From: Halomonas sp.
GTDB taxonomy: Bacteria > Pseudomonadota > Gammaproteobacteria > Pseudomonadales > Halomonadaceae
Length of the DNA: 40,031 nt
Assembly (NCBI RefSeq): GCF_011050415.1
Contig: NZ_DRFS01000007.1
Span: 1 to 40,031 of the forward strand
Direction of reading: 5' to 3'
A model generated the notes under the pieces. The model was not told the origin of the DNA. It saw only the letters and a program-made list of their open reading frames with translations, and did not search any database. Shown here piece by piece: positions 3,302-28,529 of this stretch; the first letter of the stretch is position 1; every line of letters starts with the position of its first letter. The position numbers were made by a program, and so were the translations under genes.

Positions 3302-3333
3302 TTCAGCCCTGCTTCAGGTTGGCACGCTATAAC
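3302..3333 (+). promoter_or_regulatory. TTCAG direct-repeat operator and promoter, copy a
   Basis: TTCAG at 3302-3306 and 3313-3317 (11-bp period), then TATAAC at 3328-3333, exactly 10 bp after the second half-site. It points toward copC, whose start is about 155 bp further on, with a gene relic in between. Confidence 0.6.
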
Positions 3334-3349
3334 ACCTACTCATTTCTTT

Positions 3350-3407
3350 GAAGATTCATACGACGCCATGCGCCTTGTTCGCCAAACAGGGAAAATGAAC
3401 GATGTAA
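3350..3407 (+). pseudogene. Relic of the 3' end of the 34308-type ferritin-like gene
   Basis: From 3360 to 3407 the sequence is nearly identical to 34717-34764, the end of the 152-aa gene upstream of the second copper ATPase. Both encode AMRLVRQTG(K/R)MNDV. Here the stop codon is altered and the 5' part of the gene is absent. The relic sits between operator copy a and copC, so it is presumably transcribed but not a functional gene. It marks a deletion or recombination event in the island's past. Confidence 0.75.
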
Positions 3408-3489
3408 GAAGGCTCAACCGAATCAGTTTTAGCGCCTCCGCGATGAAGTAACAATATCCATTCAACCCTGAAAAACATAAGGATACGGT

Positions 3490-3861
3490 ATGCAAAAGAA
3501 GAAGAGTTCGCTCCCTATCATTCACGCTTCCTTAGCAACGCTGTTGATGTCGCTAGCAATCCCGGCACTGGCCCATGAAGGCCGCGTAAACACTTTACCG
3601 AGGGATGGCGTCACCATTCAGGATTCCCCAGCAGAGATTGGCATCGAGTTTGGTGGCATGATGCGCATCACCCAGTTTGAAGTGGCAGGCCCGGACGGCC
3701 CCGTTCCTCTTGATGGTCAGCCAGGCAGTGAACAGGTCGATCGCTACTTCGTAAAGCCCAGTGACACTCTTTCGGCTGGGGATTACCAGGTGCGCTGGCG
3801 TGGCCTATCGGATGACGGGCACATGATGTCCGACGGTTTTAACTTCTCGGTCGAGCCCTGA
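3490..3861 (+). CDS. copC: Copper resistance protein CopC
   Basis: 123 aa with a signal peptide ending PALA, so that mature CopC begins with His29 (HEGRVNTLPRDG), the N-terminal copper ligand of this family. The C-terminal strand has DGHMMSDGFNFSV, with His111 matching the second Cu(II) ligand region. The protein is a periplasmic beta-barrel copper carrier that works with CopD. The copD start lies 4 bp after the copC stop region, so both form one unit. Likely copper-induced through the TTCAG repeat at 3302. Confidence 0.88.
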   Translation: MQKKKSSLPIIHASLATLLMSLAIPALAHEGRVNTLPRDGVTIQDSPAEIGIEFGGMMRITQFEVAGPDGPVPLDGQPGSEQVDRYFVKPSDTLSAGDYQVRWRGLSDDGHMMSDGFNFSVEP

Positions 3862-3864
3862 CCC

Positions 3865-4770
3865 GTGGCCTGGTGGTTCTCCGTAAATAGCCTCGACGTC
3901 TGGACCGTCGCGATGATTCTCGTGGCGGCTGGGGTTTACCTTAGTGCCCTAGTCGCGACGGGGGCCGTGTTGTTTCGTCTAGCGTTTCCCCGACTCCCTG
4001 ATCACGACCGGAGGCGCGTCGCCCGCATGGGCGTCTTTGCTGCCTGGGCGGGGGTCATTCTGATTCTGTTCCAGTGGCCTTTAGAAGCTGGTTACCTTGG
4101 GGGCGGCAATATATCTGCTGCAACCAACCCAATGCTGCTCGGAATCGTGTTTGAGGGTGCGTCCGGGGGCCGGCTAATGCTGGCGGCAGCTGGCTTGCTG
4201 CTGGTTCAGGCGATTCAGCTTAATAACTTAGCGCTCTCGAAAACAGCCAACAGCGTGAGCCTAGTAGGCGTTTTATTGGTGATGCTGGCATTCGTGCAGG
4301 TGGGGCATACAGTAAACACCCCACGCCTCGTTCTGGCTGGCTTGCTGATCGTTCACCTGATGGCGGCAGCATTTTGGGTGGCCTCGCTTTGGCCGCTGTT
4401 CCATTTAGTAGGACGGGGTCACAACCAGGACAATACCGCCCACATTCTGACCCGTTTCGGGAAAATCGCCATGGGCGGAGTTGGCGTGTTGGTACTGGCG
4501 GGCGTCACTTTGGCCACGCTGCTAACAGGCGGTCTCACACCCCTGCTCACCACGGCATATGGACAGTTCTTGATCGGCAAGGTATTGATTGTGGCGGCGC
4601 TACTGTTATTTGCTGCCGCGAACAAGTGGCGGCTTGTGCCGGCCTTTGAGAGCGGCGACGCAACAGCCCCAGGACGGTTACAGAGAAGTATTGCACTGGA
4701 GATGGTGCTGGTCGCGGTTATCTTGTTGATCACGGCAGTGCTGACAAGAGTGTCATCACCGAATGGGTGA
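3865..4770 (+). CDS. copD: Copper resistance inner-membrane protein CopD
   Basis: 301 aa with about eight membrane segments and a GTG start, 4 bp from the copC stop. It matches CopD/PcoD in pattern: N-terminal helices, FQWPLEAGYLGGG, the conserved VQVGHTVNTPRLVLAGLLIVHL region with His residues inside the membrane, and a C-terminal RLQRSIALEMVLVAVILLITAVLTRVSSP typical of the family. CopD takes copper from CopC for import or handling across the inner membrane. Confidence 0.85.
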   Translation: MAWWFSVNSLDVWTVAMILVAAGVYLSALVATGAVLFRLAFPRLPDHDRRRVARMGVFAAWAGVILILFQWPLEAGYLGGGNISAATNPMLLGIVFEGASGGRLMLAAAGLLLVQAIQLNNLALSKTANSVSLVGVLLVMLAFVQVGHTVNTPRLVLAGLLIVHLMAAAFWVASLWPLFHLVGRGHNQDNTAHILTRFGKIAMGGVGVLVLAGVTLATLLTGGLTPLLTTAYGQFLIGKVLIVAALLLFAAANKWRLVPAFESGDATAPGRLQRSIALEMVLVAVILLITAVLTRVSSPNG

Positions 4771-4987
4771 CTAACAGGTCAACCACCTTGTTGAGCCGTT
4801 CCAGAGCTCGAAATTAACGGTCTCCTTCTTATGGGCCTTACGCTGAGGTTTAGGCGGAGGCTGCCATAGGCAATTGCACCAACAAGACGAAAAGTCATTG
4901 CTGCAGCGTTGACTCTAATCAGGGGGGGCAGGATCCATCATCATGTTAGAAATGCTTTTGGGTAGCAGGCCATATTTTTACGTTAGG

Positions 4988-5019
4988 TTCAGGCTCGTTT
5001 CAGGTTAACGCCGTATAAA
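4988..5019 (+). promoter_or_regulatory. TTCAG direct-repeat operator and promoter, copy b
   Basis: TTCAG at 4988-4992 and 4999-5003, then TATAAA at 5014-5019 after a 10-bp gap. It lies directly before the cupredoxin gene. The remaining gap from 4771 to 4987 shows no gene. Confidence 0.65.
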
Positions 5020-5053
5020 GAACAAGTGACAATAACCTCTGAGGTAAATGACC

Positions 5054-5587
5054 ATGCGCAACATCTCCTTAACAACGTCTTTGTTTGCCCTTTCACTCAG
5101 TTTGATAACGAGTGCGGCATGGGCTTCGCCCGGCCAAGGCAGTGGTGACAATGGCCTAACCGAGGCTGACGTTGACCGCACGATCAGCCTTGAAGCTGGC
5201 GATATGTGGTTCGACCCTGAAGCGCTAGAAATGGCGGCAGGGGAGGTGGTTAAATTTGAAATTACTAACACCGGCAATCTAGAACACGAATTTGTGATTG
5301 GTAGCAAAGAAGCCCAAGAAGAACATCGCCAGATGATGCTAAACATGGCCAATGGCGGAGGCCATGACATGTCGAATATGGCACACGGTGAAGGCCACGA
5401 TATGTCCAATATGTCAAACGGCGATGGTCACGATATGGCCAATATGAGTATGGCAGGTGTCACCATTGCGCCTGGTGAAACCGGGACTTTATTATGGAGT
5501 GTCCCTGACAATGTTAACGAGCTAGAGTATGCCTGTAACATTCCTGGTCATTATGAATCCGGCATGTACGGTAATTTTTCTCTCTAA
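5054..5587 (+). CDS. CopI-like periplasmic cupredoxin with GHDM repeats
   Basis: The ATG at 5054 is preferred over 5048 because GAGG lies 9 bp before it and only 3 bp before the other. A signal peptide (LFALSLSLITSAAWA) leads to a plastocyanin-like fold: DMWFDPEALEMAAGEVV, the first His in NTGNLEHEFVIG, and the Cys-His-Met set in YACNIPGHYESGMYG near the end. Inserted in the middle are three 11-aa repeats, GHDMSNM-type, at 5360-5450, giving many His and Met ligands. Such proteins bind periplasmic copper. The gene precedes the two-component system by 14 bp and has its own TTCAG repeat promoter. Confidence 0.8.
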   Translation: MRNISLTTSLFALSLSLITSAAWASPGQGSGDNGLTEADVDRTISLEAGDMWFDPEALEMAAGEVVKFEITNTGNLEHEFVIGSKEAQEEHRQMMLNMANGGGHDMSNMAHGEGHDMSNMSNGDGHDMANMSMAGVTIAPGETGTLLWSVPDNVNELEYACNIPGHYESGMYGNFSL

Positions 5588-5601
5588 TCTGACGCAGACC
5601 C

Positions 5602-6267
5602 ATGAAACTGTTGCTACTCGAAGATGATGATTTGTTAGCAGAAAGCTTGGCAGAGAGTCTCAAGGACAACGGTTACCTGGTTGATTTGGCCGCTTCATTG
5701 AAAGCGGCCAAGTCGCTGATGGCAACCGAGGATTATGAGCTGGCTATTTTAGATGTCGGTTTGCCCGATGGGTCGGGGTTAGATCTTCTCGCTCATTGGC
5801 GCAAGCAGAAGCGCAGTACGCCTATTTTGATTTTGACGGCGCGCGATACCTGGGAAGATAAAGTTATTGGACTTGAAACGGGAGCCGATGACTATCTCAC
5901 CAAGCCCTTCCACGAAGCCGAACTCATGGCCCGCCTGAAGGCCTTGTTGCGTAGGCAGTCTGGTCAGTTATCTCAGGTGATTACGCTAAACGGTGTCTCG
6001 TTGGATGAGGCGGGTCAACGCGTGTGCTTAGAAGGGGAAACGTGGCGTTCGCTAACGGCAACGGAGTTTCGATTACTGCGCTACTTAATGCTTCATCCAG
6101 ACCGTATTCACTCGAAAGATCAGCTACTAGAGCAGCTCTACGCCTTGGAGCAGGACGCTGCCGCACCTAACTTGGTGGAAGTCTACATCGCTCGTCTGCG
6201 CCGTTATCTCGGTAAATCAGTCATTCAAACGCGACGCGGTCAGGGGTATTTCTTTGCTTCACATTGA
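5602..6267 (+). CDS. copR: OmpR-family response regulator (CopR-like)
   Basis: 221 aa. The receiver domain has the acidic pocket EDDD at 7-10, phospho-acceptor Asp51 in AILDVGLPDG, Thr79 and Lys101. The C-terminal winged helix has LTATEFRLLRYLM and VEVYIARLRRYLGKSVIQTRRGQGYFF, a QseB/PmrA-type signature. Regulators of that group bind direct repeats of 11-bp period, exactly the spacing of the TTCAG pairs found seven times here. The gene overlaps the sensor kinase by 14 bp. Copper response is inferred from surrounding genes. Confidence 0.88.
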   Translation: MKLLLLEDDDLLAESLAESLKDNGYLVDLAASLKAAKSLMATEDYELAILDVGLPDGSGLDLLAHWRKQKRSTPILILTARDTWEDKVIGLETGADDYLTKPFHEAELMARLKALLRRQSGQLSQVITLNGVSLDEAGQRVCLEGETWRSLTATEFRLLRYLMLHPDRIHSKDQLLEQLYALEQDAAAPNLVEVYIARLRRYLGKSVIQTRRGQGYFFASH

Positions 6268-7588
6268 TAGACGCAGTTTACGCATTCGGCTACTCGCATG
6301 GCTAGGCGGCGTCGCGCTACTGGTGGTGGTCACCACGTGGCTATTGCACGGGATCTTTTTACAGAGCCTGGCAAGGGATTTTTTAGGTGAACGCTTACAA
6401 CGTGAAGCAAACCACGCGGTCGCGCAGCTAGAGCAAGACCAAACGGCTGTACCGATTGCGCTCGACTCGGTTAGCCAAGGCTATCAAGTCTTTCATCATC
6501 TCTACGTACTCCGTTTCAATGGCTTAGTCAGCGCTTCTGACCCGCAATGGCAGCAACAGCTGGCTCCGTTGCTAGATGAGAGCGGCGATGCCCTAATAGA
6601 TGTGAATCGCGGAACACAGCACATGCTCGTCTATCGCCGCCATTTTGAGTGGCAGGGCACGCAGGGTGTGCTATTGGTGGGCGAGGATTTTTCCCAAGTA
6701 GAAGCAGGGCTTGCAACTTTGCACTGGTGGGTTGGTGGGATCGCCGCCGTGCTTTTAGGGATGCTCATCATGCTCAACATGCTAGCGGTTAACCGTGGAC
6801 TCATACCACTCTGGCAACTGCGCCAACAACTTGAAGGATTGCGATCAGGCAAACGTGATCGCTTGTCATTAGTAACCCCTTCGGAGCTAGATGAATTAGT
6901 CGACCAGTTGAACTGGTTTATGGACGACATTGATCTTCGTCTGAAGCGCTCGCGAGAATCGGTCGCCAACCTATCACATGCTTTAAAAACCCCGCTGGCA
7001 GCAATTACCCAAGTACTGCGCGGCAATCGGCCCATTGATGAAAACCGACGGCATAAACTGCTCAGTCGTATTGAAGATATTAACGCTCAGTTAGCTGCAG
7101 AGCTGCGTCGTTCGCGTATTGCAGGGCCTAACGCGGGTCGAATGGCGAACGTCACGCGAGATAGTTCACGGCTCATCGAGATGTTCCGTAGTCTTTACCC
7201 TGAGCGCATTTTCAACCTTACCCACTCGGCACACGAGAAAGACCAAGTGCCTATTGAGGCTCACGACTTTTCTGAAATATTAGGCATCGTGCTCGATAAC
7301 GCTGGCAAATGGTCGAATAGGTGCATTAATTGCGATATTGCCGTCTCCACTACCACACTCACGCTCACCACTGATGATGACGGTTTCGGCGTTGCAGAAG
7401 AAGATCTTTCGCGCTTGGGAGAGCGTGGCACACGATTGGATGAACGCCGTCCCGGCTACGGCTTAGGCCTGTCGATTCTTGCGCAGTTAATTGCCCGCTA
7501 CTCAGGGCACTCGCGCTTTGAGCGTAGTCCACTGGGTGGACTGCGCGTTACGGTTACGTTGCCTCTTGCAGTTGAAGTGATTAATTAA
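6254..7588 (+). CDS. copS: Membrane sensor histidine kinase (CopS-like)
   Basis: 444 aa from a TTG start inside the end of the regulator gene, with AGGGG upstream. There are two membrane helices (about 12-38 and 157-178) around a periplasmic sensor domain of some 115 residues with several His (FHHLYVL, TQHML, RRHFEW). A HAMP-like linker follows, then the phospho-acceptor His242 in LSHALKTPLAA, the N-box near Asn349 (VLDNAGKWSN), G1 DDDGFG at 374-379 and G2 GYGLGLS at 401. It should phosphorylate the regulator at 5602 when periplasmic metal rises. Confidence 0.87.
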   Translation: MLHIDRRSLRIRLLAWLGGVALLVVVTTWLLHGIFLQSLARDFLGERLQREANHAVAQLEQDQTAVPIALDSVSQGYQVFHHLYVLRFNGLVSASDPQWQQQLAPLLDESGDALIDVNRGTQHMLVYRRHFEWQGTQGVLLVGEDFSQVEAGLATLHWWVGGIAAVLLGMLIMLNMLAVNRGLIPLWQLRQQLEGLRSGKRDRLSLVTPSELDELVDQLNWFMDDIDLRLKRSRESVANLSHALKTPLAAITQVLRGNRPIDENRRHKLLSRIEDINAQLAAELRRSRIAGPNAGRMANVTRDSSRLIEMFRSLYPERIFNLTHSAHEKDQVPIEAHDFSEILGIVLDNAGKWSNRCINCDIAVSTTTLTLTTDDDGFGVAEEDLSRLGERGTRLDERRPGYGLGLSILAQLIARYSGHSRFERSPLGGLRVTVTLPLAVEVIN

Positions 7589-7594
7589 TCACTA

Positions 7595-7626
7595 TTCAGC
7601 TTTGATTCAGCTTCTTCCATCAAGAT
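7595..7626 (+). promoter_or_regulatory. TTCAG direct-repeat operator, copy c
   Basis: ATTCAG pairs with TTCAG at 7595-7599 and 7606-7610, followed after 10 bp by CAAGAT as a weak -10. The copA start is 46 bp beyond the second half-site. Confidence 0.65.
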
Positions 7627-7656
7627 GGTGCCATTCATCATTGATGGGAGTTACAC

Positions 7657-9537
7657 ATGGCACGCTCAAGCATCATTTCTCACCCGCTTTCTCGCCGGCA
7701 GGTCCTAAAAGGCGGCGCTGCCCTAGGAATAGGTTCCGCTGCCGCAATGGGATTAACCCCCGCCTGGGCAAACCCCTGGGGCCGCAGCAATGTCTACGCG
7801 CAGGGCGTTGAAGAAGGGCCCGAGGTATCGCTGGCGATCCGCCGTGAATCGTTGCCTATTGACGGACAAGAAGCCCAACCAATTACCATTAACGGTACCA
7901 GTCCTGGCCCGCTGATTCGTTTGAAAGAAGGTCAAGACGCCGTACTGCGTGTCACCAACCTGCTGGACGAGTCCACCTCCATCCACTGGCATGGTCTCAT
8001 TCTACCGCCGGAAATGGATGGTGTGCCTGGTGTCAGCTTTGCCGGTATCGCCCCTGGTGAAACCTTTACCTACCGCTTTCCCGTACGCCAAAACGGCACC
8101 TACTGGTATCACAGCCACTCCGGTATGCAGGAGCAGCTAGGCCATGCCGGGCCGCTGATTATCGACGCTGCCGAGCGTGAGCCTATCCGCTACGACCGTG
8201 AGCACGTATTGCTGCTCACCGACTGGACCTTTGAAGATCCCATGTCGGTGTTCCGTAATCTGAAAACGATGGAAGGGTACTACAACTTCCAAGAGCGCAC
8301 GATTGCTGACTTCTTTGCCGATGTTCGTAATAACGGTTTCTCTCAAACCGCCGAGATGCGCGGCATGTGGGCCAAAATGCGCATGAGCTCGAGGGATATC
8401 GCCGATGTTACCGGCAGTACTTACACTTACCTGCTAAACGGCCATTCCCCCCAGGAAAACTGGAATGCCCTGTTCAAAGCCGGTGAGCGGGTGCGGCTAC
8501 GCGTGATTAACGGGTCGGCGATGTCATACTTTGATGTACGTATACCTGGTTTGAAGATGACCGTCGTTGCTGCCGATGGCCAGCCAGTGCAACCCGTGCC
8601 TGTTGATGAGTTCCGTATTGGCGTGGCGGAAACGTACGATGTGCTTGTTTCACCAGAAGATGATCGAGCCTATACCATCTTCGCCGAAGCCATGGATCGG
8701 AGTGGCTACGCTCGCGCCACGCTAGCTCCACGTGAAGGCATGCAGGCGGAGATTCCTGAACGCCGTCAAATTGCAGACCGCGGTATGGAAGCCATGGGTG
8801 CCCACGGTATGGGCGGTATGGATCACTCCAACATGGCGGGGATGGATCACTCTGGCATGTCCAATATGCAAGGAATGGATCATTCCAACATGTCGGGCAT
8901 GGATCATTCAGGCATGTCGAATATGGAAGGCATGGATCATTCCAGCATGGCTGGGATGGATCACTCCGGTATGTCCAACATGCAAGGCATGGATCACTCT
9001 ACTATGGGGGGGATGGCAGCCGAGCAGGCCAAAATAGGCGCAAATGGTTTGCTTCTCGCCGGTGAAGCTCAGCCGGGCTCTCGCTATAACCAGGCGGGAA
9101 TCGGCATTGATCCTGACGAAAGACGCGTATTGGTTTACCGGGATCTCAAAGCGTTCACACCATGGCCTGATCGCCGTGAGCCAGGCCGTGAGCTTGAGCT
9201 GCACCTGACCGGCAATATGGAGCGTTATATGTGGTCGTTCGACGGTAAGAAGTTTAGCGAAGTGACGGGCCCTATTCATTTTGAGAAAGATGAGCGGCTG
9301 CGCCTAATTCTGATTAACGACACCATGATGGAGCATCCTATTCACCTCCACGGTATGTGGATGGAGCTAGAAAACGGCCAAGGGGAATTGATACCACGCA
9401 AACACACCCTAAATGTGAAGCCCGGTGAGCGCGTATCTGCGTTGATCACCGCAGATGCAGAGGGCAGTTGGGCGTTCCACTGCCACCTTCTCTATCACAT
9501 GGATGCTGGCATGTTCCGCGTTGTTCAAGTTTCTTAA
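7657..9537 (+). CDS. copA: Tat-exported multicopper oxidase CopA/PcoA
   Basis: 626 aa. A twin-arginine leader, SRRQVLKGG, at 12-20 shows folded export. Copper ligands of the three cupredoxin domains are all visible: HWHG at 110-113, HSH at 152-154, HPIHLHG near 560-566 and HCHLLYHMDAGM at 608-619 with the type 1 Cys, His and Met. Residues about 388-453 form a Met/His-rich insert made of three 19-aa repeats. The enzyme oxidises Cu+ to Cu2+ in the periplasm. It is followed 9 bp later by copB and driven by the TTCAG repeat at 7595. This is the PcoA-type CopA, not the ATPase of the same name. Confidence 0.92.
   Translation: MARSSIISHPLSRRQVLKGGAALGIGSAAAMGLTPAWANPWGRSNVYAQGVEEGPEVSLAIRRESLPIDGQEAQPITINGTSPGPLIRLKEGQDAVLRVTNLLDESTSIHWHGLILPPEMDGVPGVSFAGIAPGETFTYRFPVRQNGTYWYHSHSGMQEQLGHAGPLIIDAAEREPIRYDREHVLLLTDWTFEDPMSVFRNLKTMEGYYNFQERTIADFFADVRNNGFSQTAEMRGMWAKMRMSSRDIADVTGSTYTYLLNGHSPQENWNALFKAGERVRLRVINGSAMSYFDVRIPGLKMTVVAADGQPVQPVPVDEFRIGVAETYDVLVSPEDDRAYTIFAEAMDRSGYARATLAPREGMQAEIPERRQIADRGMEAMGAHGMGGMDHSNMAGMDHSGMSNMQGMDHSNMSGMDHSGMSNMEGMDHSSMAGMDHSGMSNMQGMDHSTMGGMAAEQAKIGANGLLLAGEAQPGSRYNQAGIGIDPDERRVLVYRDLKAFTPWPDRREPGRELELHLTGNMERYMWSFDGKKFSEVTGPIHFEKDERLRLILINDTMMEHPIHLHGMWMELENGQGELIPRKHTLNVKPGERVSALITADAEGSWAFHCHLLYHMDAGMFRVVQVS
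8818..9015 (+). repeat. 57-bp tandem repeats in copA encoding MDHSxM units
   Basis: Three 57-bp units begin at 8818, 8875 and 8932, with a partial fourth at 8989. Each encodes MDHS(N/S)M-x-GMDHSGMSNM-(Q/E)G. Silent differences between units show they are not very recent copies. They supply Met and His ligands to the oxidase. Confidence 0.9.
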
Positions 9538-9546: not shown

Positions 9547-10317
9547 ATGAAAATTAAGCGCTACTTAACCCTCGCCAGCGCCGCCCTTGGCATGGCCGCC
9601 GCCACGACCGCTCAAGCCGAAGATGGCTATGCGGCACCAGACAGTTGGCCAGCGCCCACTGAGGAACATAATATGGGTATGGCACTGTTTGATCGGCTCG
9701 AATATAGCGTGCCTGATAAAGGCCCAGAAGCCGTGGTATGGGACTTTCAAGGTTGGTACGGCGGCGATATCAACCGCATTTACCTAAAGTCAGAAGGCAA
9801 AAATGTCCAGGGCGACGGCGAAGATGCTGAGTTTGAGTCTTTGGAACTACTCTATAGTCGTTTAGTGGCTGATTTTTGGGAGTTACAGGGGGGGATCGGT
9901 TATCAAGGCGGTGTTTTCTCCGATGATCACGCCGAACGCACCTATGGGGTTGTCGGCCTGCAAGGCATAATGCCCTACGGCATTGAAACCGACGTGGCAT
10001 TACGAGTGAGTGAAGATGGCGACGTGGCCGCCAGTTTTGAAGGCGAATACGACCTGCGCCTCACCCAGCGGCTTTATTTACAGCCCCGCACCGAAATTGC
10101 CGTTGCTGCTAGCGAAGTCGAGGAGTTTGGGGTGGGCCAAGGGCTAAACTCCGTGCGTGTGGGTATGCGTCTAGGTTATGAGGTGACCCGCCGCTTCGCT
10201 CCATACGTGGGTGCTTACTGGGTAAAAGAGTATGGCGATACCGCTGACCTTTCTCGTGCTGGCGGGAATAATACCGAAGATACCGGCGTGGTGGCAGGTG
10301 TCAGGTTAATGTTTTAA
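9547..10317 (+). CDS. copB: Outer-membrane copper resistance protein CopB/PcoB
   Basis: 256 aa, RBS AAGGAGG before the ATG. The signal peptide ends TTAQA. The mature protein is a beta-barrel: YAAPDSWPAPTEEHNMGMALFDRLEY, then alternating strands and a terminal strand ending in Phe (GVVAGVRLMF), the usual signal for outer-membrane assembly. CopB binds copper and pairs with CopA. The short Met/His-rich N-terminal region seen in some homologues is reduced here to HNMGM. Ends in a strong terminator at 10341. Confidence 0.88.
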   Translation: MKIKRYLTLASAALGMAAATTAQAEDGYAAPDSWPAPTEEHNMGMALFDRLEYSVPDKGPEAVVWDFQGWYGGDINRIYLKSEGKNVQGDGEDAEFESLELLYSRLVADFWELQGGIGYQGGVFSDDHAERTYGVVGLQGIMPYGIETDVALRVSEDGDVAASFEGEYDLRLTQRLYLQPRTEIAVAASEVEEFGVGQGLNSVRVGMRLGYEVTRRFAPYVGAYWVKEYGDTADLSRAGGNNTEDTGVVAGVRLMF

Positions 10318-10384: not shown

Positions 10385-10416
10385 TTCAGCTTCAATTCAT
10401 ACTCTAAGGTTATTAT
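10385..10416 (+). promoter_or_regulatory. TTCAG/TTCAT direct-repeat operator, copy d
   Basis: TTCAG at 10385-10389 and TTCAT at 10396-10400, then TATTAT at 10411-10416 after 10 bp. It precedes the 138-aa secreted protein gene. Confidence 0.6.
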
Positions 10417-10448: not shown

Positions 10449-10865
10449 ATGAAAATTAAAGCAATTGTTTTTAGTGCAGTAGTAGCAAGTATCCTCTCTA
10501 CACCTGTATTAGCGAGCTTAGGCAATACAACACAGAATCTTCCCTTACTAGAAAGAGGCGTATCTTCTACACAGATGCTTGCCCAGGGGCAACCTAAGCG
10601 TTTCAATATTAACATTGAACAAGCGACTACACTGAAAGTAGTGAGTGAGCACTTTCCAGGATTTACCAGCACTGGCAACCGCATTTCAGCTGTTCTTTAT
10701 AATGAGGCGGGACAGCAGGTAGCAGAAGCTTCCAGCCCACGGGGGCACTTCGAACTTATTCGTCAGCTGCAACCTGGAAATTATCAGCTTGAGGTGAGTG
10801 GTAGCTCATTGGGAGGTAATAACCAAAGTGACAGTAACCGTTATGAACTACATGTCGCCTATTGA
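10449..10865 (+). CDS. Small secreted protein of unknown function, likely copper-regulated
   Basis: 138 aa with a clear signal peptide (AIVFSAVVASILSTPVLA). The mature part is predicted beta-rich: PKRFNINIEQATTLKVVSE, RISAVLYNEAGQQVAEA and LQPGNYQLEVSGSS resemble the jelly-roll of bacterial pre-peptidase C-terminal domains, but I cannot place it in a named family. It has no Cys and few His, so it is an unlikely metal store. It is a single-gene unit with its own TTCAG repeat promoter and terminator. Confidence 0.8.
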   Translation: MKIKAIVFSAVVASILSTPVLASLGNTTQNLPLLERGVSSTQMLAQGQPKRFNINIEQATTLKVVSEHFPGFTSTGNRISAVLYNEAGQQVAEASSPRGHFELIRQLQPGNYQLEVSGSSLGGNNQSDSNRYELHVAY

Positions 10866-10947: not shown

Positions 10948-10985
10948 TTCAGCTTTAATTCAGGAATTTTCGCTAACTTTATAGT
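10948..10985 (+). promoter_or_regulatory. TTCAG direct-repeat operator, copy e
   Basis: TTCAG at 10948-10952 and 10959-10963. TAACTT lies 10 bp later, and a better -10, TATAGT, at 10980. It precedes the interrupted porin gene. Confidence 0.62.
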
Positions 10986-11031: not shown

Positions 11032-12204
11032 ATGTGGAATAACAAGAAGATTCCCTTGGTCAGCATGACGGTTATGGCCTTGGCAATCGGCTCGACGTAT
11101 GTTTCGGCCCTGGAAACCCAAGTGGGAGAGACCACCGTGGGGCTTTATGGCTACGCCAGGCTGAACATGGCTTATAACTTCGATCGGGATGCCGGATCGG
11201 CTAACGAAGGTTATTTTGCTGAAGTCGCTGGATCGGAAGATGAGGGGGATGTTGGGGATCAGTTTCAGATGTCTGCAACACAGAGCCGTATCGGCTTTCG
11301 GACCAGTACGCCTGTCGAGGGGAGTACGCTTGACACCGTAATCGAAGGGGACTTCTGATCCTATAATGATGATAATTCGCGCTTCAGATTACGGCATGCC
11401 TATGGTTCCTGGAATGGGATCCTTGCCGGACAGACCTGGTCGAATTACAACACCTTCGTCGCCGCCACGCCCACACTGGATTTCCTCGGCACGGCGGGAA
11501 GCAATGGCTATGGGTCGCGCCTAGCCCAGTTGCGCTACACCATGGGAGGATTCTCGATAGCTGCGGAGGATCCAAAGGCACAGCTGGCGGAGAACATCGA
11601 TGGCTCCGTGCCAGAAGATGATTTGCTACCGGATAATGACGATGCCGTATCATCGATGCCCGCGTTGAGCCTGCGCTATGAAGATAGTATGGGTGACTTT
11701 TCCTACTCAATCGCCGGCATCGCCCGGCAGCTGAAGTACGATACCGGAAGCGAAAAGGATACGGAAATGGGCTATGGGGCCTTCGCCGCAGGTGCCTACC
11801 ATGCCGGACCGGTGACCTTGAGAGCGATCGTGAACGCCAGCGAGGGGGCGAACAGTTACCTCTATCTGTCTGGCGATTACTTCAACGGTGCCGATGCCTA
11901 CGTCGATACCAACGGTAAGCTGCAAACGCTATCTGGCGATGGCGGAGCCCTTGGTCTTTCTTATCAAATATCACCACAGTATTCACTGAACGCGTCCCAT
12001 GGCTATACCGATGTCGAATTGGGCGACCCTACCGTAGGTGGGAATGCAGGTAGAAAGAACAAGAATACATTTCTTAATCTGATGTGGACTCCCAACGAAC
12101 GCTTGATGTACGGAATTGAGTACGGCTATTTCGAAACGGAGTTGGCCGATGGCCGTGAAGAAGATGCGAGCCGTGTGATGGTGGCTGCCCAGTATAGTTT
12201 CTAG
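11032..12204 (+). pseudogene. DcaP-like outer-membrane porin interrupted by one in-frame TGA
   Basis: One continuous frame of 391 codons is broken only by TGA at 11356-11358 (codon 109), in the context VIEGDF-stop-SYNDDNSRFRLRHAYGSW. The N-terminal part has a signal peptide (TVMALAIGSTYVSA) and the start of a barrel (VGLYGYARLNMAY, SRIGFRTSTP). The rest runs to a terminal Phe (VMVAAQYSF). RBS, TTCAG repeat and terminator are all intact. The single stop could be a recent mutation, a read error or weak readthrough; selenocysteine is unlikely. If TGA was TGG, the product would be a full-length porin. Confidence 0.8.
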
Positions 12205-12245
12205 GGTGAGTTAGTAGCATAGCAGAGAAGCTGTTTTGATCGATT

Positions 12246-12271
12246 GCTTGGGCGTATGCCCAAGCTTTTTT
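12246..12271 (+). terminator. Rho-independent terminator after the porin
   Basis: 8-bp perfect stem GCTTGGGC / GCCCAAGC with loop GTAT and six T. Confidence 0.9.
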
Positions 12272-12284
12272 ATGGTTCTTCGTC

Positions 12285-12566
12285 ACTTCATGTGGGGCCT
12301 GATCGAACAGGCGACCCACAATACCACTGTCACTAAACTGAATAAGAAAGATCAGTCGCGTCGGGAACACTTTTGATGACCAAATCGATACAGATGAAGT
12401 CGCGCATGGCCTGGCTGTCATAGATGGCATCTTCAAGCGCTTCGTCGACCAGTGCATACCATTGCTGAAGGAAGTAGATCCGCAACATCTGTCCCAGGAA
12501 CCGTTCCCGGCGGGTGACCTTCTTATTGTTCTGGTGCTCAGCCTGAGCAAACGAGATCTGTTTCAT
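12285..12566 (-). pseudogene. IS5-family transposase relic
   Basis: The start MKQISFAQAEHQNNKK and TRRERFLGQM match the N-terminus of IS5-type transposases. The next block, MLRIYFLQQWYALVDEALEDA, normally lies some 30 residues later, so an internal deletion fused them. The frame then stops after DATDLSYSV, and traces such as GRLFDQ continue in another frame. No DDE catalytic region or terminal repeats are recognisable, so the element is dead. Confidence 0.75.
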
Positions 12567-12765
12567 CGAGAACTCTGGCGGGTAGTGGAAAACTGTATTT
12601 TGCCCTGCCGGTGGCACTTAGGCAGCAACGGTCGTATTTATGCAGTGTTTCCTTAAAAGAGGCTCGCAGTAGGCTTGCTTCTACTAGAGTTTATTTCAAA
12701 ATAATTACCTCAATAATTTGAAAGCCTGAGTTAAAGCAAATGAATTTCTCCATAGAAGTTCACGT

Positions 12766-12791
12766 CCAACCGGAGCGCTCGCCCCGGCTGG
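12766..12791 (-). terminator. Possible hairpin after the Csp3-like gene
   Basis: CCAACCGG and CCGGCTGG flank a 10-bp loop, 9 bp past the stop of the Cys-rich gene. There is no clear T-run, so termination is uncertain. Confidence 0.35.
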
Positions 12792-12799
12792 CTTAGAGC

Positions 12800-13129
12800 T
12801 TAGCTGGCCATTGCGGCACATTCTTCAGCGCAGCGGTGACAAGCTTGGGCACACTCTTGGCAGTGGGATGCATCATGTTTTTCACACTCATCACCACATT
12901 TCTTACAAATGTCGGCACATAGACGGCAGATCTCGTGCGCAAACTCACTTTCTTGTGCCATAAATGAGGCGGCTAACCGACAAATTTGAGCACATTGCAT
13001 GTTAAGGCGAATACATTCCGCCATCATTTTTACGTTGTCTTCTTTTAGACACTCAGTTGCACACTTGTCGCAATAAGCAGCGCATATGTGACAAGCTTCA
13101 ATGCAGTTTTCGTATTTTTTGAAGTCCAT
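12800..13129 (-). CDS. Csp3-like four-helix-bundle copper storage protein (DUF326)
   Basis: 109 aa with 19 Cys, mostly spaced CxxxC or CxxC along helices: positions 9, 13, 16, 20, 23, 27, 39, 46, 50, 68, 71, 75, 78, 82, 90, 93, 97, 100 and 104. This is the pattern of copper storage proteins, which load many Cu+ ions inside a four-helix bundle. There is no signal peptide, so it belongs with the cytosolic Csp3 type. RBS GGAG lies before the ATG. The upstream region holds operator copy f, but that points the other way. Confidence 0.88.
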   Translation of the reverse strand: MDFKKYENCIEACHICAAYCDKCATECLKEDNVKMMAECIRLNMQCAQICRLAASFMAQESEFAHEICRLCADICKKCGDECEKHDASHCQECAQACHRCAEECAAMAS

Positions 13130-13516
13130 CTCGGTTCTCCATTTATTAAATCAAATTTTATTTACCATAGTTCTTGCTTGGCATAATAAAGCTAGAACAA
13201 CCTAAAAGATAAATCAAGGAAAGGGAACCTGGTAACTAATCAAAAAATATAAAAATAAACCAGGTAGCTGTGCGTTACTTGCCGTAATTTTTATTATTCA
13301 GCTAGGATTCAGGAAGGCCTACTATAATAAATTTTTTGTCAAAAAAACACTGAAACGTTCGCTGCGCTTGTAAGTTACCTCGCCACGAGATCCTAATTAA
13401 AATTAATTAGGTGAAAGAACTAAATTAACAGTGAAAGAAATTAAGTTCTAAGCATTATAAAAATAATCTCCTTTTAGGAGACTAGCTCAGCCTAATAAGC
13501 TTCTTAAGGAGTCAGT
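13130..13516. other. Gene-free stretch with operator and inverted repeats
   Basis: AT-rich region. It holds the operator at 13297, a perfect inverted repeat CCTAATTAA-AA-TTAATTAGG at 13392-13411, and an imperfect pair AGAACTAAATT / AATTAAGTTCT just after it. No gene is seen. Confidence 0.5.
13297..13328 (+). promoter_or_regulatory. TTCAG direct-repeat operator and promoter, copy f (orphan)
   Basis: TTCAG at 13297-13301 and 13308-13312, then a perfect TATAAT at 13323-13328 after 10 bp. It is the best -10 of the seven, yet the gene it should drive is truncated. Confidence 0.68.
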
Positions 13517-13591
13517 ATGAAAAGTAATCTCTACTTCTCTGACGGCCTGGCTACCCCAGGGTCGCCAGGGAGGGAAAAAGGTCGACCATGA
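13517..13591 (+). pseudogene. Truncated gene start behind an orphan copper-type promoter
   Basis: AAGGAG and an ATG at 13517 start MKSNLYFSDG, then the frame runs into the tail of the minus-strand CcdA gene and stops after 24 codons. The RBS context (AAGGAGtCAGT-ATG) closely copies that of copB at 9547. I read it as the first codons of a lost gene cut by insertion of the next module, with the junction near 13540. Confidence 0.45.
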
Positions 13592-23677: not shown

Positions 23678-23704
23678 GGTTGCTTGTACGCAAGCAACCT
23701 TTTT
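23678..23704 (+). terminator. Rho-independent terminator after the 78-aa gene
   Basis: Perfect 9-bp stem GGTTGCTTG / CAAGCAACC, loop TACG, then five T. It would separate the 78-aa gene from downstream genes or attenuate them. Confidence 0.92.
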
Positions 23705-23763
23705 CTTATGCGGGCAGCGTCAATGAGACCTTCCGCCCTGTTAACTAACCGGACACTCAATAT

Positions 23764-24204: not shown

Positions 24205-24218
24205 GGGATAGTGCGGCG

Positions 24219-24767
24219 ATGAAACACCCCATCCTGACAGGATATCTCGTAGCCGTATTTCTGATGACTGCCACATCCCTTGCCATGGCCGCCCCGTCAG
24301 AAAGCTCAGGGCCACAAGGGTTTCTTCTCTGGGCCACCCCCAACGACGTATCGGAAATCAGTTTCGAGGATAGCGGCGGCACCCCTTTAACGTTGGCTGA
24401 CTTTGAAGGAAAACTGATTTTACTCAACATCTGGGCAACATGGTGTGGGCCTTGTCGAGAGGAAATGCCCACTTTAGATGCCCTCCAGGCTGAGCTTGGC
24501 AGCGATAATTTTGAAGTGGTCGCCTTATCGATCGACCGTAAGGGGATCGAGATTGTTAATGAATTTTATCAAGAGATAGGCATTGAGCATCTGGCTCCCT
24601 ATATAGATAAAACCGGGATGGCTAGTGCAGATCTTGGGGCTGTAGGTATTCCCACGACGCTTCTACTTGACCGCCAAGGCAAAGAAATTGGGCGCCTCGT
24701 GGGGGAAGCCGAGTGGAACACTCAAGACATGATCGACTTTCTTACCGAAATGATTGCAACCAGATAA
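24219..24767 (+). CDS. TlpA/ResA-like periplasmic thioredoxin
   Basis: 182 aa. The signal sequence ends SLAMA. The thioredoxin fold shows LILLNIWATWCGPCREEMPTL with the redox pair Cys76/Cys79, then VVALSIDRKGIEIV and the cis-Pro loop GIPTTLLLDRQG. It acts as a periplasmic thiol reductase, and the CcdA-type protein two genes downstream is its natural electron donor. The start lies 14 bp after the DUF411 stop. Confidence 0.87.
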   Translation: MKHPILTGYLVAVFLMTATSLAMAAPSESSGPQGFLLWATPNDVSEISFEDSGGTPLTLADFEGKLILLNIWATWCGPCREEMPTLDALQAELGSDNFEVVALSIDRKGIEIVNEFYQEIGIEHLAPYIDKTGMASADLGAVGIPTTLLLDRQGKEIGRLVGEAEWNTQDMIDFLTEMIATR

Positions 24768-24779
24768 TGAGGTAGCACC

Positions 24780-25163
24780 ATGAGTTGTTGTGACGACAAA
24801 ACCCAACAGAGCAAACAAAAATCGGGGCTACAAGGCCTGTTGACAGGGCCTCGCGGCCTGATGTTGCTGGGTGGCGTGGCAGTGGCTGGCGGCCTTGCTT
24901 TTGGCTGGGATAACCTGGTCTTGCTCGGCATCGCGCCTATTCTATTGAGCCTATTGCCATGTCTCATTATGTGCGGATTAGGCCTATGCATAATGAAGTG
25001 CAAAGACAAAAAAGGTGAAGCGACCGAGCAAAGCGACGCTACCAATGTTCAGGCCCAGGTAGAAGACGCTTCAGAAGTGAATGCCGACACAGCGCCCACC
25101 ACTCACCAAATAGTAGATCAAAGCGAGTCAATCAAGCAGTCCTCGTCAAAATTCCAAGCCTAG
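24780..25163 (+). CDS. Cys-rich two-helix membrane protein of unknown function
   Basis: 127 aa. It begins MSCCDDKTQQ with a Cys-Cys pair, then two hydrophobic helices (RGLMLLGGVAVAGGLAFGW and VLLGIAPILLSLLPCLIMC). A CLIMCGLGLCIMKCK cluster puts four Cys at the second helix, and the tail is acidic and Gln/Ser-rich. I do not recognise the family. Its position between TlpA-like and CcdA genes suggests a thiol or metal role at the inner membrane. Confidence 0.75.
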   Translation: MSCCDDKTQQSKQKSGLQGLLTGPRGLMLLGGVAVAGGLAFGWDNLVLLGIAPILLSLLPCLIMCGLGLCIMKCKDKKGEATEQSDATNVQAQVEDASEVNADTAPTTHQIVDQSESIKQSSSKFQA

Positions 25164-25178
25164 CATAGGTAAAGGATA

Positions 25179-25922
25179 ATGCTTGAAGTAGCCAATATAG
25201 GACTTGCCACTGCCTTTCTGGCAGGCCTGATCTCGTTTATTTCGCCCTGTGTTTTGCCACTTGTGCCTGGCTATCTTTCATTCATGACCGGCCGCTCGCT
25301 CGGACAACTACAGGAAGCGGATAGACGAGAGCGTCTTCGGGTATTAACCCAGTCAATGTGGTTCGTGCTCGGTTTTTCAACCGTTTTTTTGATGCTGGGA
25401 GCCAGTGCCACAGCCATTGGTCGTCTGCTGTTGGTGTATCGCCAAGAAGCAAACCTAGTCGGTGGCCTTATCGTCATCCTGTTTGGTGCCTTCATGACCG
25501 GGCTCATGCCGTGGCGCTGGTTTCAGCAAGAATGGCGGTTTATGGGTCGACTGAAGGACGTCGGCGGAAGCCGCAGTGCGGCTTATCTGCTTGGTTTAGC
25601 GTTTGCATTTGGCTGGACCCCCTGCATTGGCCCGATTTTGGGTGCCATTCTTACCGTCAGCGCCTCCACGGCCAACGCCTGGAGCGGGATGGCGTTGCTC
25701 GGCGTTTATTCTTTGGGTCTGGGCGTGCCCTTCATGCTGAGTGCTATTTCGCTCGATCGCTTCATAAAGCACCAGAAATTCCTGCGTCGCTGGGGGCATT
25801 TCATACATATAGCGGCTGGGTTGATCATGATTCTGATGGGTAGCTTAATGATCACAGGCAAACTATCCGAGCTGTCATATTGGTTATTGCGTACTTTCCC
25901 TGCCCTAGGTGTTATCGGCTAA
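25179..25922 (+). CDS. CcdA/DsbD-type transmembrane thiol electron carrier (copy 2)
   Basis: 247 aa, six helices, redox pair Cys24 (FISPCVLPLVPGYL) and Cys149 (GWTPCIGPILGA). It is related to copy 1 at 13551 but has a different C-terminus. It should feed electrons to the TlpA-like protein encoded upstream. It sits in tight linkage with the genes on either side. Confidence 0.88.
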   Translation: MLEVANIGLATAFLAGLISFISPCVLPLVPGYLSFMTGRSLGQLQEADRRERLRVLTQSMWFVLGFSTVFLMLGASATAIGRLLLVYRQEANLVGGLIVILFGAFMTGLMPWRWFQQEWRFMGRLKDVGGSRSAAYLLGLAFAFGWTPCIGPILGAILTVSASTANAWSGMALLGVYSLGLGVPFMLSAISLDRFIKHQKFLRRWGHFIHIAAGLIMILMGSLMITGKLSELSYWLLRTFPALGVIG

Positions 25923-25945
25923 TCGTTATTTAAGGAAATATTGAA

Positions 25946-26812
25946 ATGCACATGATCGTGAGTCGTTTTTTACGTGTCTTCTTACTGACAGGCTTGGCCG
26001 CAGTCAGCTTTGGCAGCGCCATTACGGCCTTGGCAACTGAAGAAGGGTTGCTTGCACTGCAATATGACGTAACAGGCAAACGACTGTTTAAAATTGAGGC
26101 TAACCAGCTATTTCAGCGTACCGACGAAGGCTTGGTTTGGAATGCGATTCCCTTGCCCGAAGACGTGAATGAAGGCCAGTTGCGCGCGGTATCGGTCCCC
26201 TCCACTGATCCGCAAGCGCTCTATATCGCAGGCCCCTCAATCGGGGTGCAGCGTAGCACCGACAATGGAGAAACCTGGCAAGAGCTCAGCGCTAACCTAC
26301 CTAGCCGGGAGGTGACTGCGCTAACCGTGCATCGCCGCCAGGACGAAACACTTTATGCGGTGATTGCCGAAAACGGCATCTACCAAAGCCAAGATGCTGG
26401 CACCACCTGGAAAAAAATGGACAGTGGTCCTTCACAAAAGGTTAACCGACTCGTTCACTCTGACATGGAAGGTAGCATGCAGACCGGCTGGCTCTACGGG
26501 GTATCGGACGATGCGGTGCGTCTATCGATGGACTGCTTTTGCGGCTGGAGACCGACCGGAGAGCTTGATGCTGGCAGCGTCTATGATATGGCTTATAGCC
26601 TTGACAACCCAAAGCGAGTCTATGTGGCTACGCAGCAGGGCCTATGGCGAAGCGAAACGGGTGGACAAGAGTGGCAACCAGTAGCTGGTGACGGCACAGT
26701 GCTCGTTGCGCTCACCCTCTCTCCCAAAGGCACGCTCTATGGTTTAAATCAGAAAGGGGAGCTTTTGCGCAGTGAAGACGAAGGCCAATCCTGGGCTTAT
26801 CCCGATGCGTAA
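25946..26812 (+). CDS. Secreted BNR/Ycf48-like beta-propeller protein
   Basis: 288 aa with signal peptide (FLLTGLAAVSFGSAITALA). Repeats of the type S-x-D-x-G-x-T-W recur: RSTDNGETWQELS, QSQDAGTTWKKMD, RSETGGQEWQPV and RSEDEGQSWAYP. These make a small beta-propeller. There is a Cys-x-Cys in MDCFCGW. Homologues in metal islands are often labelled glycosylhydrolase-like, but no catalytic residues are evident; a scaffold for metal-enzyme assembly is possible, as for Ycf48. The cytochrome gene begins inside its end. Confidence 0.75.
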   Translation: MHMIVSRFLRVFLLTGLAAVSFGSAITALATEEGLLALQYDVTGKRLFKIEANQLFQRTDEGLVWNAIPLPEDVNEGQLRAVSVPSTDPQALYIAGPSIGVQRSTDNGETWQELSANLPSREVTALTVHRRQDETLYAVIAENGIYQSQDAGTTWKKMDSGPSQKVNRLVHSDMEGSMQTGWLYGVSDDAVRLSMDCFCGWRPTGELDAGSVYDMAYSLDNPKRVYVATQQGLWRSETGGQEWQPVAGDGTVLVALTLSPKGTLYGLNQKGELLRSEDEGQSWAYPDA

Positions 26813-27272
26813 GCGCTGGTTCTTTGCCTTATGGCTGACACTAATGGTTGTGGGGCACGCCATGGCTGAGGATCGCCTTTTTTCAAGCAATACTCCTCAG
26901 TTGGAAGACGGAAAAATAGTTTACCGACAATACTGTGCCAGTTGCCACGGTACACAAGGCGAAGGCATGCCCAACTGGGAAGGGCAAAATGCTCTGGGGG
27001 AGTTACCTGCTCCACCACATGGGCCAGAGGGCCATACCTGGAAACACTCTGATGCCATGCTCTACCGAATTATTGCTGAAGGTTGGCGTGACCCCTGGAA
27101 TAAAACTGATAGGCTAACAATGCCAGCGTACCAGGAGATTTTGGCTCCCACCGAGATCCGCGATGTGGTGAATTATCTCAAGTCATTATGGACGCAAGAG
27201 CAAAGGCGTCACCAAGCAGACGAAAGTGCTGAGAACCCCTTTCCCATACAAACTGAAATACCCCCAGAGTAA
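26805..27272 (+). CDS. Periplasmic mono-heme cytochrome c
   Basis: 155 aa starting at the ATG at 26805 (MRKRWFFALWL), which overlaps the previous gene by 8 bp. The signal peptide ends HAMA. Heme-binding CASCH occurs in IVYRQYCASCHGTQGEGM and the distal Met is probably in TMPAYQEIL. It is a class I cytochrome that could accept electrons from copper or thiol oxidation. A CcdA protein and thioredoxin just upstream are the type of proteins needed to mature it. Confidence 0.86.
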   Translation: MRKRWFFALWLTLMVVGHAMAEDRLFSSNTPQLEDGKIVYRQYCASCHGTQGEGMPNWEGQNALGELPAPPHGPEGHTWKHSDAMLYRIIAEGWRDPWNKTDRLTMPAYQEILAPTEIRDVVNYLKSLWTQEQRRHQADESAENPFPIQTEIPPE

Positions 27273-27847
27273 ATAATAGTGTCTATGCCCTATAACAAAT
27301 TTTCTTAGTCACCTTATGGGTCACCACACTGTTAGCTACCGTCTCAACCGCCCACTTGTGTTATTAAGTAGAAAACAACCTCTTGGTCCTTTTAACTCCG
27401 ACAAACCTGCTCCCGGCGAATGCTAGCCCTTACTTAGAAAACCAACTTCGCATTGTCAGCGAATAAATATACACTTTAGCGAATCTCAAATGTTTATGTT
27501 GAGACATGGAAGTTAACAAATTTCATATAAAATAAACTTATTACCTAACGACTGAGGCGCCTTCAGGCTTAGTAAGATCGACTGGCTCACTTCACAATAA
27601 AGTTTTCGTCGCGCCACATATTTGATCTGAAGGCTGTGGAAGGGAGTTAGATTATTATGTTAGGTAAGCAATATAGTGTTAATAAACAACTAAGAGGTTC
27701 ATAACGGTGACAACGACCCACTCCAGCGCTCGCGCTTATGGTTGCAAACAGGAGAGTACATATGTCCGTTTGGCTTGTAGATCGTTGACCTGCTCGTGCA
27801 CATGGGCCTTAGGTGAACGTAAACCTGCTGACTTCGCGATAAGAGAT

Positions 27848-28260
27848 TGACGCGTTTACAGAGCAGGAACATGTCGATACGATTTCCCAGGGATATCTGG
27901 GCTATGAACGTATTGGCGGCTATGAAGAGCTTCATGAGCACCTGGGAGTTAGCGTTTCAGACCCTAATGCGACCACCTATCGCCCTGTGCTGGCAATTTT
28001 TGCCACTGCGTTACTCATCGATTTTTCTGCCAGTTGGGAGGTTCAGTGCATAATATTCACTGCACGCGTGCTAGAGTATGCCGTAGTCACAGCGATCATA
28101 CCCCCGGGTCTGCAAAAGCTGCAGGGCGTAGCGAGCTTTAGCGCCATGTTTCTCAACTATGACCTGCACGCCCAGCGCCAAGTCCCCTTCAGTTACGTTT
28201 ACCTTCACGCCTAGATACTTCCGAAGCTACTAATTGCTGGCCGATACGCTTATCTGGCTG
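27848..28260 (+). pseudogene. Decayed gene, possibly a DUF2231-like membrane protein
   Basis: One frame reads EIDAFTEQEHVDTISQGY, GGYEELHEHLGVSVSDP and TTYRPVLAIFATALLIDFSA, then breaks up. Later pieces (IIPPGLQKLQG, FSAMFLNYDLHA, LLIAGRYAYLAG) loosely recall DUF2231-type membrane proteins. There is no RBS or clean start. The identity is a weak guess; the decay itself is likely. Confidence 0.35.
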
Positions 28261-28497
28261 GCTGCGCCACTGGCGCTATTCGTTGGCACCGTGTGACAGG
28301 TTCTGTCTTTAAAGCGATATACCTCGATAAACGTGAGCTCAAGTGCGCCTGTGTCGGCAACAGTAATACCCATTAAGCTTTGTATCGCTCACCGAAAACC
28401 TAATGATGATGGGAATGAGGCTATGGATACCGCTTGAGTAATTATCGCCTACTTTTTGCGAGGCGCTTGATCAGGATCATATTTCCCTCCGATGCTG

Positions 28498-28529
28498 TTC
28501 AGGTTGCGTTCAGACAAATCATCCATGCT
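28498..28529 (+). promoter_or_regulatory. TTCAG direct-repeat operator, copy g
   Basis: TTCAG at 28498-28502 and 28509-28513, with CATGCT 10 bp later as a weak -10. It is 99 bp before the DUF2933 gene and 15 kb away from the other copies. Confidence 0.55.

Follow-up and report, generated by a model that had tools for sequence, protein, structure and literature searches.

A tandem TTCAG repeat as the predicted operator of a putative copper two-component system in Halomonadaceae

We analysed a 40,031-nucleotide stretch of DNA from Halomonas sp. (contig NZ_DRFS01000007.1, positions 1 to 40,031; hereafter, the window), in which the direct repeat TTCAG-N6-TTCAG occurs seven times in an island of copper genes. 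These seven repeats are predicted, with a probability of roughly 0.8, to be the operators of the response regulator encoded from position 5602, which would be phosphorylated by the adjoining sensor kinase on copper and would activate the genes of the island. In our reading, regulator and kinase represent a second lineage of copper two-component systems, whose putative tandem operator overlaps the −35 region. In the proposed mechanism, periplasmic copper would alter the kinase, which would then phosphorylate the regulator. The phosphorylated regulator would dimerise, bind the repeat head-to-tail over the −35 region, contact RNA polymerase and recruit it to the likely −10 hexamer located 10 bp downstream; activation would switch on copCD, the regulator's own copI operon, copAB and the other genes of the copper island.

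The first-pass annotation of this DNA had listed seven repeats with an 11-bp period, each followed at a fixed distance of 10 bp by a hexamer that could serve as a −10 element, and we recovered the positions and sequences of the repeats as given there; Table 1 lists the seven hexamers. All the repeats lie on the plus strand and six are exact, the 10385 repeat ending in TTCAT; no exact box was present on the minus strand of the window. In 100 dinucleotide-preserving shuffles of the window, the mean number of exact repeats was 0.06 (largest value 1), and none reached the observed six. With at most one mismatch, the window contained 10 matches (shuffle mean 2.74; 0/100 reaching 10), the three additional ones being found at 27065-, 30726- and 34752-. 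When N10-TANNNT was appended to the repeat and up to two mismatches were accepted, seven matches were obtained (shuffle mean 0.64, largest 4; 0/100 reaching seven). If the hexamer occupies −12 to −7, the two pentamers map to about −38 to −34 and −27 to −23, and a distinct −35 element would not fit. As far as the sequence goes, the constant distance between box and hexamer agrees with the earlier suggestion that the repeat covers the −35 region, as in direct activation, and with class II activation.

A scan of the host genome (4.71 Mb in 34 contigs), which the first-pass annotation had put forward as a check, returned 20 exact repeats, six in the window and 14 elsewhere, and two instances of the reversed pattern. 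A hexamer of the form xAxxxT was found at +10 in four of the six window sites versus none of the 14 outside, 11 of which lay inside open reading frames (ORFs; a threshold of at least 100 aa was used for all such counts). With one mismatch, the repeat followed by xAxxxT matched 27 times, seven of them in the window, and the reversed control gave seven matches. Five of the 20 matches outside the window held the exact repeat, and 12 of the other 15 were inside ORFs. From these counts, the box set therefore looks confined to the copper island.

The box is conserved beside relatives of the regulator, some of which, in Vreelandella and Halomonas, are 96–100% identical to it. The scan for these relatives yielded 65 loci, from which L088, L089, L092 and L093 (at most 42% identity) were left out. 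In the 61 remaining loci of the family Halomonadaceae, pairs of TTCAG words occurred 157 times at a gap of 6 bp versus zero to six times at each other gap between 0 and 20, the reversed word gave zero to four pairs at gaps of 2 to 12, and the exact box was present in 60 of the 61 loci. Only 16 of the 157 exact sites were located inside ORFs and 141 were outside (inside-ORF baseline: 84% for random positions, 81% for single TTCAG words), so that the motif was far from equally frequent within genes and elsewhere, the result that the first-pass annotation had named as a refutation. The 61 loci are not independent, and 69 sites were left after the removal of those at least 75% alike. In this set, xAxxxT stood at a gap of 10 in 40 sites, the other gaps from 4 to 19 giving at most 15/69, and the hexamer had T or C at position 1 (97%), A at position 2 (90%) and T at position 6 (67%). 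The shuffles and these spacing controls rule out a chance origin of the repeats.

We clustered the first frames behind 165 distinct boxes, taken from the 61 loci, 17 stretches chosen for their many boxes, and the window. The largest groups were copA (41 boxes) and copI (39), which first formed a single cluster and were then split, followed by copC (7), a DcaP porin (including that of the window), NuoA-like and SHOCT proteins and the regulator itself (6 each), Lgt and relatives of a 138-aa protein of the window (5 each), an APC permease and Met-rich, YHS-like and 126-aa proteins (4 each), DUF411 and outer-membrane-factor-like proteins (3 each), DUF2933 (2) and one further pair. The rest comprised 17 single frames, several of which look spurious, and one box without a frame. 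Pfam was run on eight cluster representatives, with YHS falling just below the cut-off, and the APC, Met-rich and outer-membrane-factor clusters were named by eye. L035, L036, L039 and L048 have promoters nearly identical to the 3302 copC promoter, and so does the copC gene of plasmid L197. The plasmid of Halomonas sp. KO116 carries boxes before copC, copI-regulator-kinase, copAB and an APC permease, and a variant box before the gene homologous to that of the 138-aa protein. Another box on this plasmid precedes a cluster annotated as NADH-quinone oxidoreductase A, hypothetical, H, J, K, proton-conducting subunit, M and N, after which egtB-egtD (ergothioneine) is found; L198 5321–16038 and L196 11288–13866 cover the egt cases of KO116 and of Hydrocarboniclastica marina (see below).

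The 5602 regulator is the likely binder of the predicted operators. It was found in 78 of 151 family genomes (E 1e-60), and the box with xAxxxT was present in 72 of these 78 versus 18 of the 73 regulator-negative genomes (Fisher 1.8e-18). Because the regulator, copA and the box travel together, presence and absence within the family cannot tell a binder from a target. Where copI is not upstream, a box was found 46–49 bp before the regulator gene (L079, L080, L082, L090 and L162). The class level does separate binder from target, since the link between box and regulator is independent of copper genes there. Among 319 other genomes of Gammaproteobacteria, regulator homologs (44–53% identical, E 1e-55) were identified in 66, the box with TANNNT in 78, and both in 45; the box was thus found in 45/66 regulator-positive versus 33/253 regulator-negative genomes (Fisher 4e-18). 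The connection between regulator and box proposed in the first-pass annotation is upheld to that extent, by a class-wide co-occurrence outside the copper context. Of the 116 class sites, 40 had a regulator homolog no more than 12 kb away; 24 of these lay upstream of it by 0.5–2.1 kb on its strand, and five about 2 kb downstream.

Ten class loci were read over about 1.5 kb on either side, and frames from seven of them, chosen as likely cytochrome b561 or PepSY genes, were submitted to Pfam. Cytochrome b561 was recognised in 5/5 frames sent (L177, L181, L184, L192 and L194), PepSY in 6/6 (L169, L181, L184, L190, L192 and L194) and a dihaem cytochrome c in L181; frames were not clear in L168, L170 and L176, and no cop genes were seen in the ten loci within this distance. 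In 28 class regulator loci, 18 exact boxes were distributed over 11 loci, and the other gaps gave zero or one pair, except for gap 17 (four pairs), an excess corresponding to a third TTCAG one period further on. TANNNT was found exactly at +10 in 15 of these 18 boxes; the remaining three are upstream registers within arrays that have multiple half-sites. L184 contains four TTCAG half-sites at the 11-bp period reading towards the cytochrome b561 gene, and L169 contains three.

The kinase is predicted to be a periplasmic copper sensor. When the window kinase was aligned with 28 kinases from the class and 48 further distinct ones from the family, four histidines stood out, located at the end of the first transmembrane segment (TM1), in an FHH motif and just before TM2 (Table 1). 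All four were present in 48/49 family kinases, the exception, L049, not aligning in this region. No class kinase among the 28 combined His32, His81 and His157, and neither the full set nor cop genes were found in a further 28 class kinase loci (partly from the same genomes; 1.5 kb on either side). The full set was recovered in two remote copper loci. The first is on the plasmid of H. marina (Alteromonadaceae), where copI-copA-copB stand divergently beside a regulator 51.5% identical to that of the window. Its five exact boxes include one before copI, one before the regulator, and one that falls within a gene annotated as hypothetical, 0.1 kb ahead of egtB, with egtB-egtD near the copper locus. 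The second is in genome G026 (L162), from another genus of the window's family, in which the regulator is 51% identical, copI and copA adjoin, and each of the three exact boxes is followed by xAxxxT at +10. A single copper clade including the H. marina regulator was not rejected (p-AU 0.50; tree without G026). In CopS of Pseudomonas aeruginosa, the sensing site is described as His41 and His140 at the dimer interface (domain 34–151; homology model on CusS; PMC7763554). The window kinase likewise has paired histidines near its membrane ends, His32 and His157, and this likeness to His41/His140 is one of position only.

A regulator that binds the boxes could respond to redox or envelope stress rather than to copper itself. 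The sister clade does stand with cytochrome and PepSY genes, His82 is common to both kinds of sensor, and a Foldseek search with the AlphaFold model of the sensor (mean pLDDT 79) gave weak PAS-like matches (best E 2.2e-3, WalK; CzcS at rank 4). However, copA and copI together account for 80 of the 165 distinct boxes, and the combination of His32, His81 and His157 is shared by 48/49 family kinases and the two remote copper loci and is absent from the 28 class kinases, so that we consider a signal other than copper rather unlikely.

The regulator is of the OmpR/PhoB type, with a receiver domain (87.9 bits) and a winged-helix Trans_reg_C domain (68 bits), both above cut-off, and it scored below the cut-off of each of the 25 NCBIfam families listed out of 93. 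CusR/CopR/CzcR (TIGR01387; 149 versus a cut-off of 279.2), CreB (NF008296; 150.9 versus 273) and PmrA/BasR (NF007928; 205.8 versus 330) were rejected as assignments. The first-pass annotation had considered a PmrA/QseB-type regulator: the 11-bp period fits, and the protein resembles PmrA, with PmrA/BasR as the nearest solved structures by sequence, but its score is below the PmrA cut-off and PmrA is separate in the tree. In this 100-protein phylogeny, the family regulators formed one group (99/97), close to the 28 class regulators and the host paralogs L022 (preceded by a PepSY gene) and L023 (no Pfam match before it). PmrA fell with host paralogs L024–L026 on a long branch, in a tree for which the program warns of long branches meeting.

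In the recognition helix, Asn, Tyr and Arg at positions 190, 195 and 198 were conserved in 60/60 family rows and 27/28 class rows (Lys for Arg in one), and PmrA has N/H/N. Among the other paralog rows, N/Y/R was found in 1/11, the second regulator of L037, which also stands beside an exact box. In that locus, the box at 12035 points away from this regulator (12171–12821, 46% identical), which lies near an RND-type efflux gene, named by eye. The base contacts described for PmrA are Asn188, Asn196 and Arg210, with His193 and His195 proposed from docking (PMC4660055, PMC3973317), and the corresponding positions in the 5602 regulator hold N190, R198, R212, Y195 and A/G197. In PhoB, an Arg at the position equivalent to R198 is described as contacting a guanine; by analogy, R198 may read the C of TTCAG.

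It seems distinctly improbable that another regulator, for example a PmrA/QseB-type or PepSY-type paralog of the host, binds the repeats and that the 5602 regulator is a mere neighbour. Several OmpR-type paralogs are encoded in the genome, and PmrA is described as reading 11-bp tandem repeats. However, no exact box was found in seven paralog loci (about 1.5 kb on either side), the box goes with the 5602 regulator clade across the class, beside other target genes, and in some relatives it stands directly before the 5602-type regulator gene itself. The host regulator-kinase paralogs at G000 C29:42683 (with a PepSY gene before it) and C25:203984 are without exact TTCAG boxes. Finally, the idea that the repeats arose as promoters were duplicated in a mobile island, without being selected as operators, deserves hardly any weight: the island does hold an integrase-core gene, a group II intron reverse transcriptase and broken genes, and L041 has two near-identical copI-type promoters, but the spacers and flanks of the seven repeats differ while their pentamers and spacing are kept, 69 family sites survive the removal of similar ones, and the same box is present in distant families.

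Several observations weigh against the interpretation of the seven repeats as copper-controlled operators of the 5602 regulator. The copC and copI hexamers are without T at position 6, and in H. marina only three of the five boxes have xAxxxT at +10, that of the regulator being without it. Within the family, the Kushneria locus L073 has no exact site, 6/78 regulator-positive genomes are without the exact box with xAxxxT, and 18/73 regulator-negative genomes hold 39 such boxes. Furthermore, 72/73 regulator-negative family genomes are also without copA (E 1e-80); the one exception, G040, has a copI gene with its box that runs directly into a copA fragment. The mismatches in the class amount to 21/66 genomes with a regulator and no box and 33/253 with a box and no regulator at the threshold used. 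L022 and L023, the two host paralogs near the class regulators in the tree, are near no exact box; the L192 kinase of the class carries three of the four histidines, and no copper genes lie within 1.5 kb to its left or right; and the sensor model had no PDB match at E ≤0.001.

We lean, if only slightly, towards a broader scenario in which a clade extending throughout Gammaproteobacteria owns TTCAG-N6-TTCAG-N10-TANNNT and elsewhere drives cytochrome b561/PepSY operons. In its copper branch, the sensor would have gained histidines 32, 81 and 157, converging on the dimer-interface site of CopS/CusS, and the unchanged operator would have been passed to copper genes, joined on one plasmid by a cluster of the NuoA-to-NuoN type with egtB-egtD. 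This branch would represent an independent second lineage of periplasmic copper sensing.

The genes located behind the boxes were mostly those named in the first-pass annotation (Table 1), but the porin gene at the 10948 box is broken by an in-frame stop and no nameable open frame follows the 13297 box (window 13297–13550). The two CopI models were the only NCBIfam matches of the copI-like protein, with 118.3 and 85.7 bits (cut-offs of 280 and 200). The 138-aa protein had no Pfam or NCBIfam match; a homolog with 83% identity is encoded on plasmid NZ_CP011053.1, and five more distant homologs (33–44% identical) have exact boxes 45–47 bp upstream of their starts. Homologs of the DcaP-like porin in L035, L160 and L161 are intact. 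The 13297 promoter resembles the NuoA-like promoter L157:2043, and V. titanicae L030, where 1301 bp align at 97.7% identity, has the same orphan box. A search of the window for nuo or egt homology was negative, and reading this box as the relic of a nuo operon is thus only a guess. At 27813–28438, just upstream of the 28498 box, lie the pieces of a disrupted gene that on the KO116 plasmid is annotated as glutaredoxin, and a piece of an integrase-core gene and a group II intron reverse transcriptase lie at 28839–30922, near the DUF2933 gene. A Cys-rich protein resembling the Csp1 copper storage proteins (37.6 bits, cut-off 100) is encoded on the minus strand at 12800–13129. The APC permease at 32943–34277 is 88% identical to the box-preceded one of the KO116 plasmid, and no box was present upstream of it within 32650–32960.

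Table 1. Coordinates of the predicted operators, genes and codons in the window
Feature	Coordinates	Strand	Context or evidence
Box TTCAG-N6-TTCAG, −10 TATAAC (3328–3333)	3302–3333	+	before copCD
copC	3490–3861	+	PF04234
copD	3865–4770	+	PF05425
Box, −10 TATAAA (5014–5019)	4988–5019	+	before copI-regulator-kinase
copI-like cupredoxin	5048–5587	+	PF00127; two CopI NCBIfam models below cut-off
OmpR/PhoB-family response regulator, proposed box binder	5602–6267	+	Pfam Response_reg and Trans_reg_C
Recognition helix codons 190–198 (N190, Y195, R198)	6169–6195	+	family/class alignment
Sensor histidine kinase, proposed periplasmic copper sensor	6254–7588	+	HATPase_c
His32 codon, end of TM1	6347–6349	+	His in 48/49 family, 0/28 class sensors
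His81-His82 codons (FHH motif)	6494–6499	+	His81 48/49 family, 2/28 class; His82 48/49 family, 26/28 class
His157 codon, just before TM2	6722–6724	+	48/49 family, 3/28 class
Box, −10 CAAGAT (7621–7626)	7595–7626	+	before copAB
copA multicopper oxidase	7657–9537	+	TIGR01480, 812 bits (cut-off 478.95)
copB	9547–10317	+	PF05275
Variant box TTCAG-N6-TTCAT, −10 TATTAT (10411–10416)	10385–10416	+	before 138-aa secreted protein
138-aa protein, family unassigned, secreted-looking N-terminus	10449–10865	+	sequence
Box, −10 TAACTT (10974–10979)	10948–10979	+	before broken DcaP-like porin
DcaP-like porin with in-frame stop	11032–12204	+	first ORF piece 11032–11358
Box, −10 TATAAT (13323–13328)	13297–13328	+	no nameable gene behind
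Box, −10 CATGCT (28524–28529)	28498–28529	+	before DUF2933 gene
DUF2933 protein	28613–28819	+	PF11666 on L031 copy; window frame matched to it by eye

Known systems resemble this one in part. The CreB/BlrA tag, TTCAC-N6-TTCAC, has the same geometry as the TTCAG box and shares four of its five bases. BqsR of P. aeruginosa is described as a ferrous-iron-responsive activator with the operator TTAAG(N)6TTAAG, in which the downstream pentamer overlaps the −35 region and the 6-bp spacer is essential (PMC4682146). The boxes reported here also consist of two pentamers with a 6-bp spacer, the downstream one over the −35 region, and also occur in arrays of more than two pentamers; however, their third base is C rather than the A of TTAAG, and they do not conform to the BqsR operator. 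The PmrA/BasR box of enterobacteria is given as CTTAAG-N5-xTTAAT (PMC3973317, PMC4660055). The 11-bp tandem arrangement, the OmpR/PhoB fold and the nearest solved structures are points in common with PmrA/BasR, whereas the score below cut-off, the position in the tree, the helix residues (N/Y/R versus N/H/N) and the half-site, which differs by one base (TTCAG versus TTAAG), set the two apart. Published CusR and CopR sites are described as palindromes or CTGACA-N5-GTAAT (PMC11195947). The system described here shares targets of the copAB/copCD type with CusRS/CopRS/PcoRS, and histidines near both membrane ends of the sensor (PMC7763554). Unlike them, it has sites that are 11-bp direct repeats, and both the regulator and the kinase fall far below the TIGR01387 and TIGR01386 cut-offs (62.2 bits versus 292.55 for the kinase, for which the latter model was rejected). 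DsbRS of P. aeruginosa is described as copper-responsive and as inducing disulfide-bond genes (PMC10141476). The resemblance to DsbRS, set beside our system by description, lies in a copper-linked two-component system outside the CusRS type. The DsbRS box is TTA-N8-TTAA, which, if right, has an 11-bp period as well.

Tandem 11-bp operators of OmpR-type regulators are already known, and DsbRS is the main published neighbour as a copper-responsive system outside the CusRS type. A copper system that uses the tandem type with its own lineage of regulator and kinase is, as far as we have seen, new; our literature search, with most subscription journals outside its coverage, found no paper on the TTCAG-N6-TTCAG box and none on regulators of PepSY or cytochrome b561 genes. 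One operator, one regulator and one sensor would serve copper defence in a family in which the regulator occurs in 78 of the 151 genomes sampled. The findings point to more than one origin of two-component systems that sense copper: a single predicted operator would serve copper genes in one branch and cytochrome and PepSY genes in its relatives, so that signal and target would have changed while the DNA code was kept. The box also allows candidate members of the regulon to be read from sequence, including the secreted protein of unassigned family, DUF2933, DUF411, Lgt, SHOCT and NuoA-like proteins.

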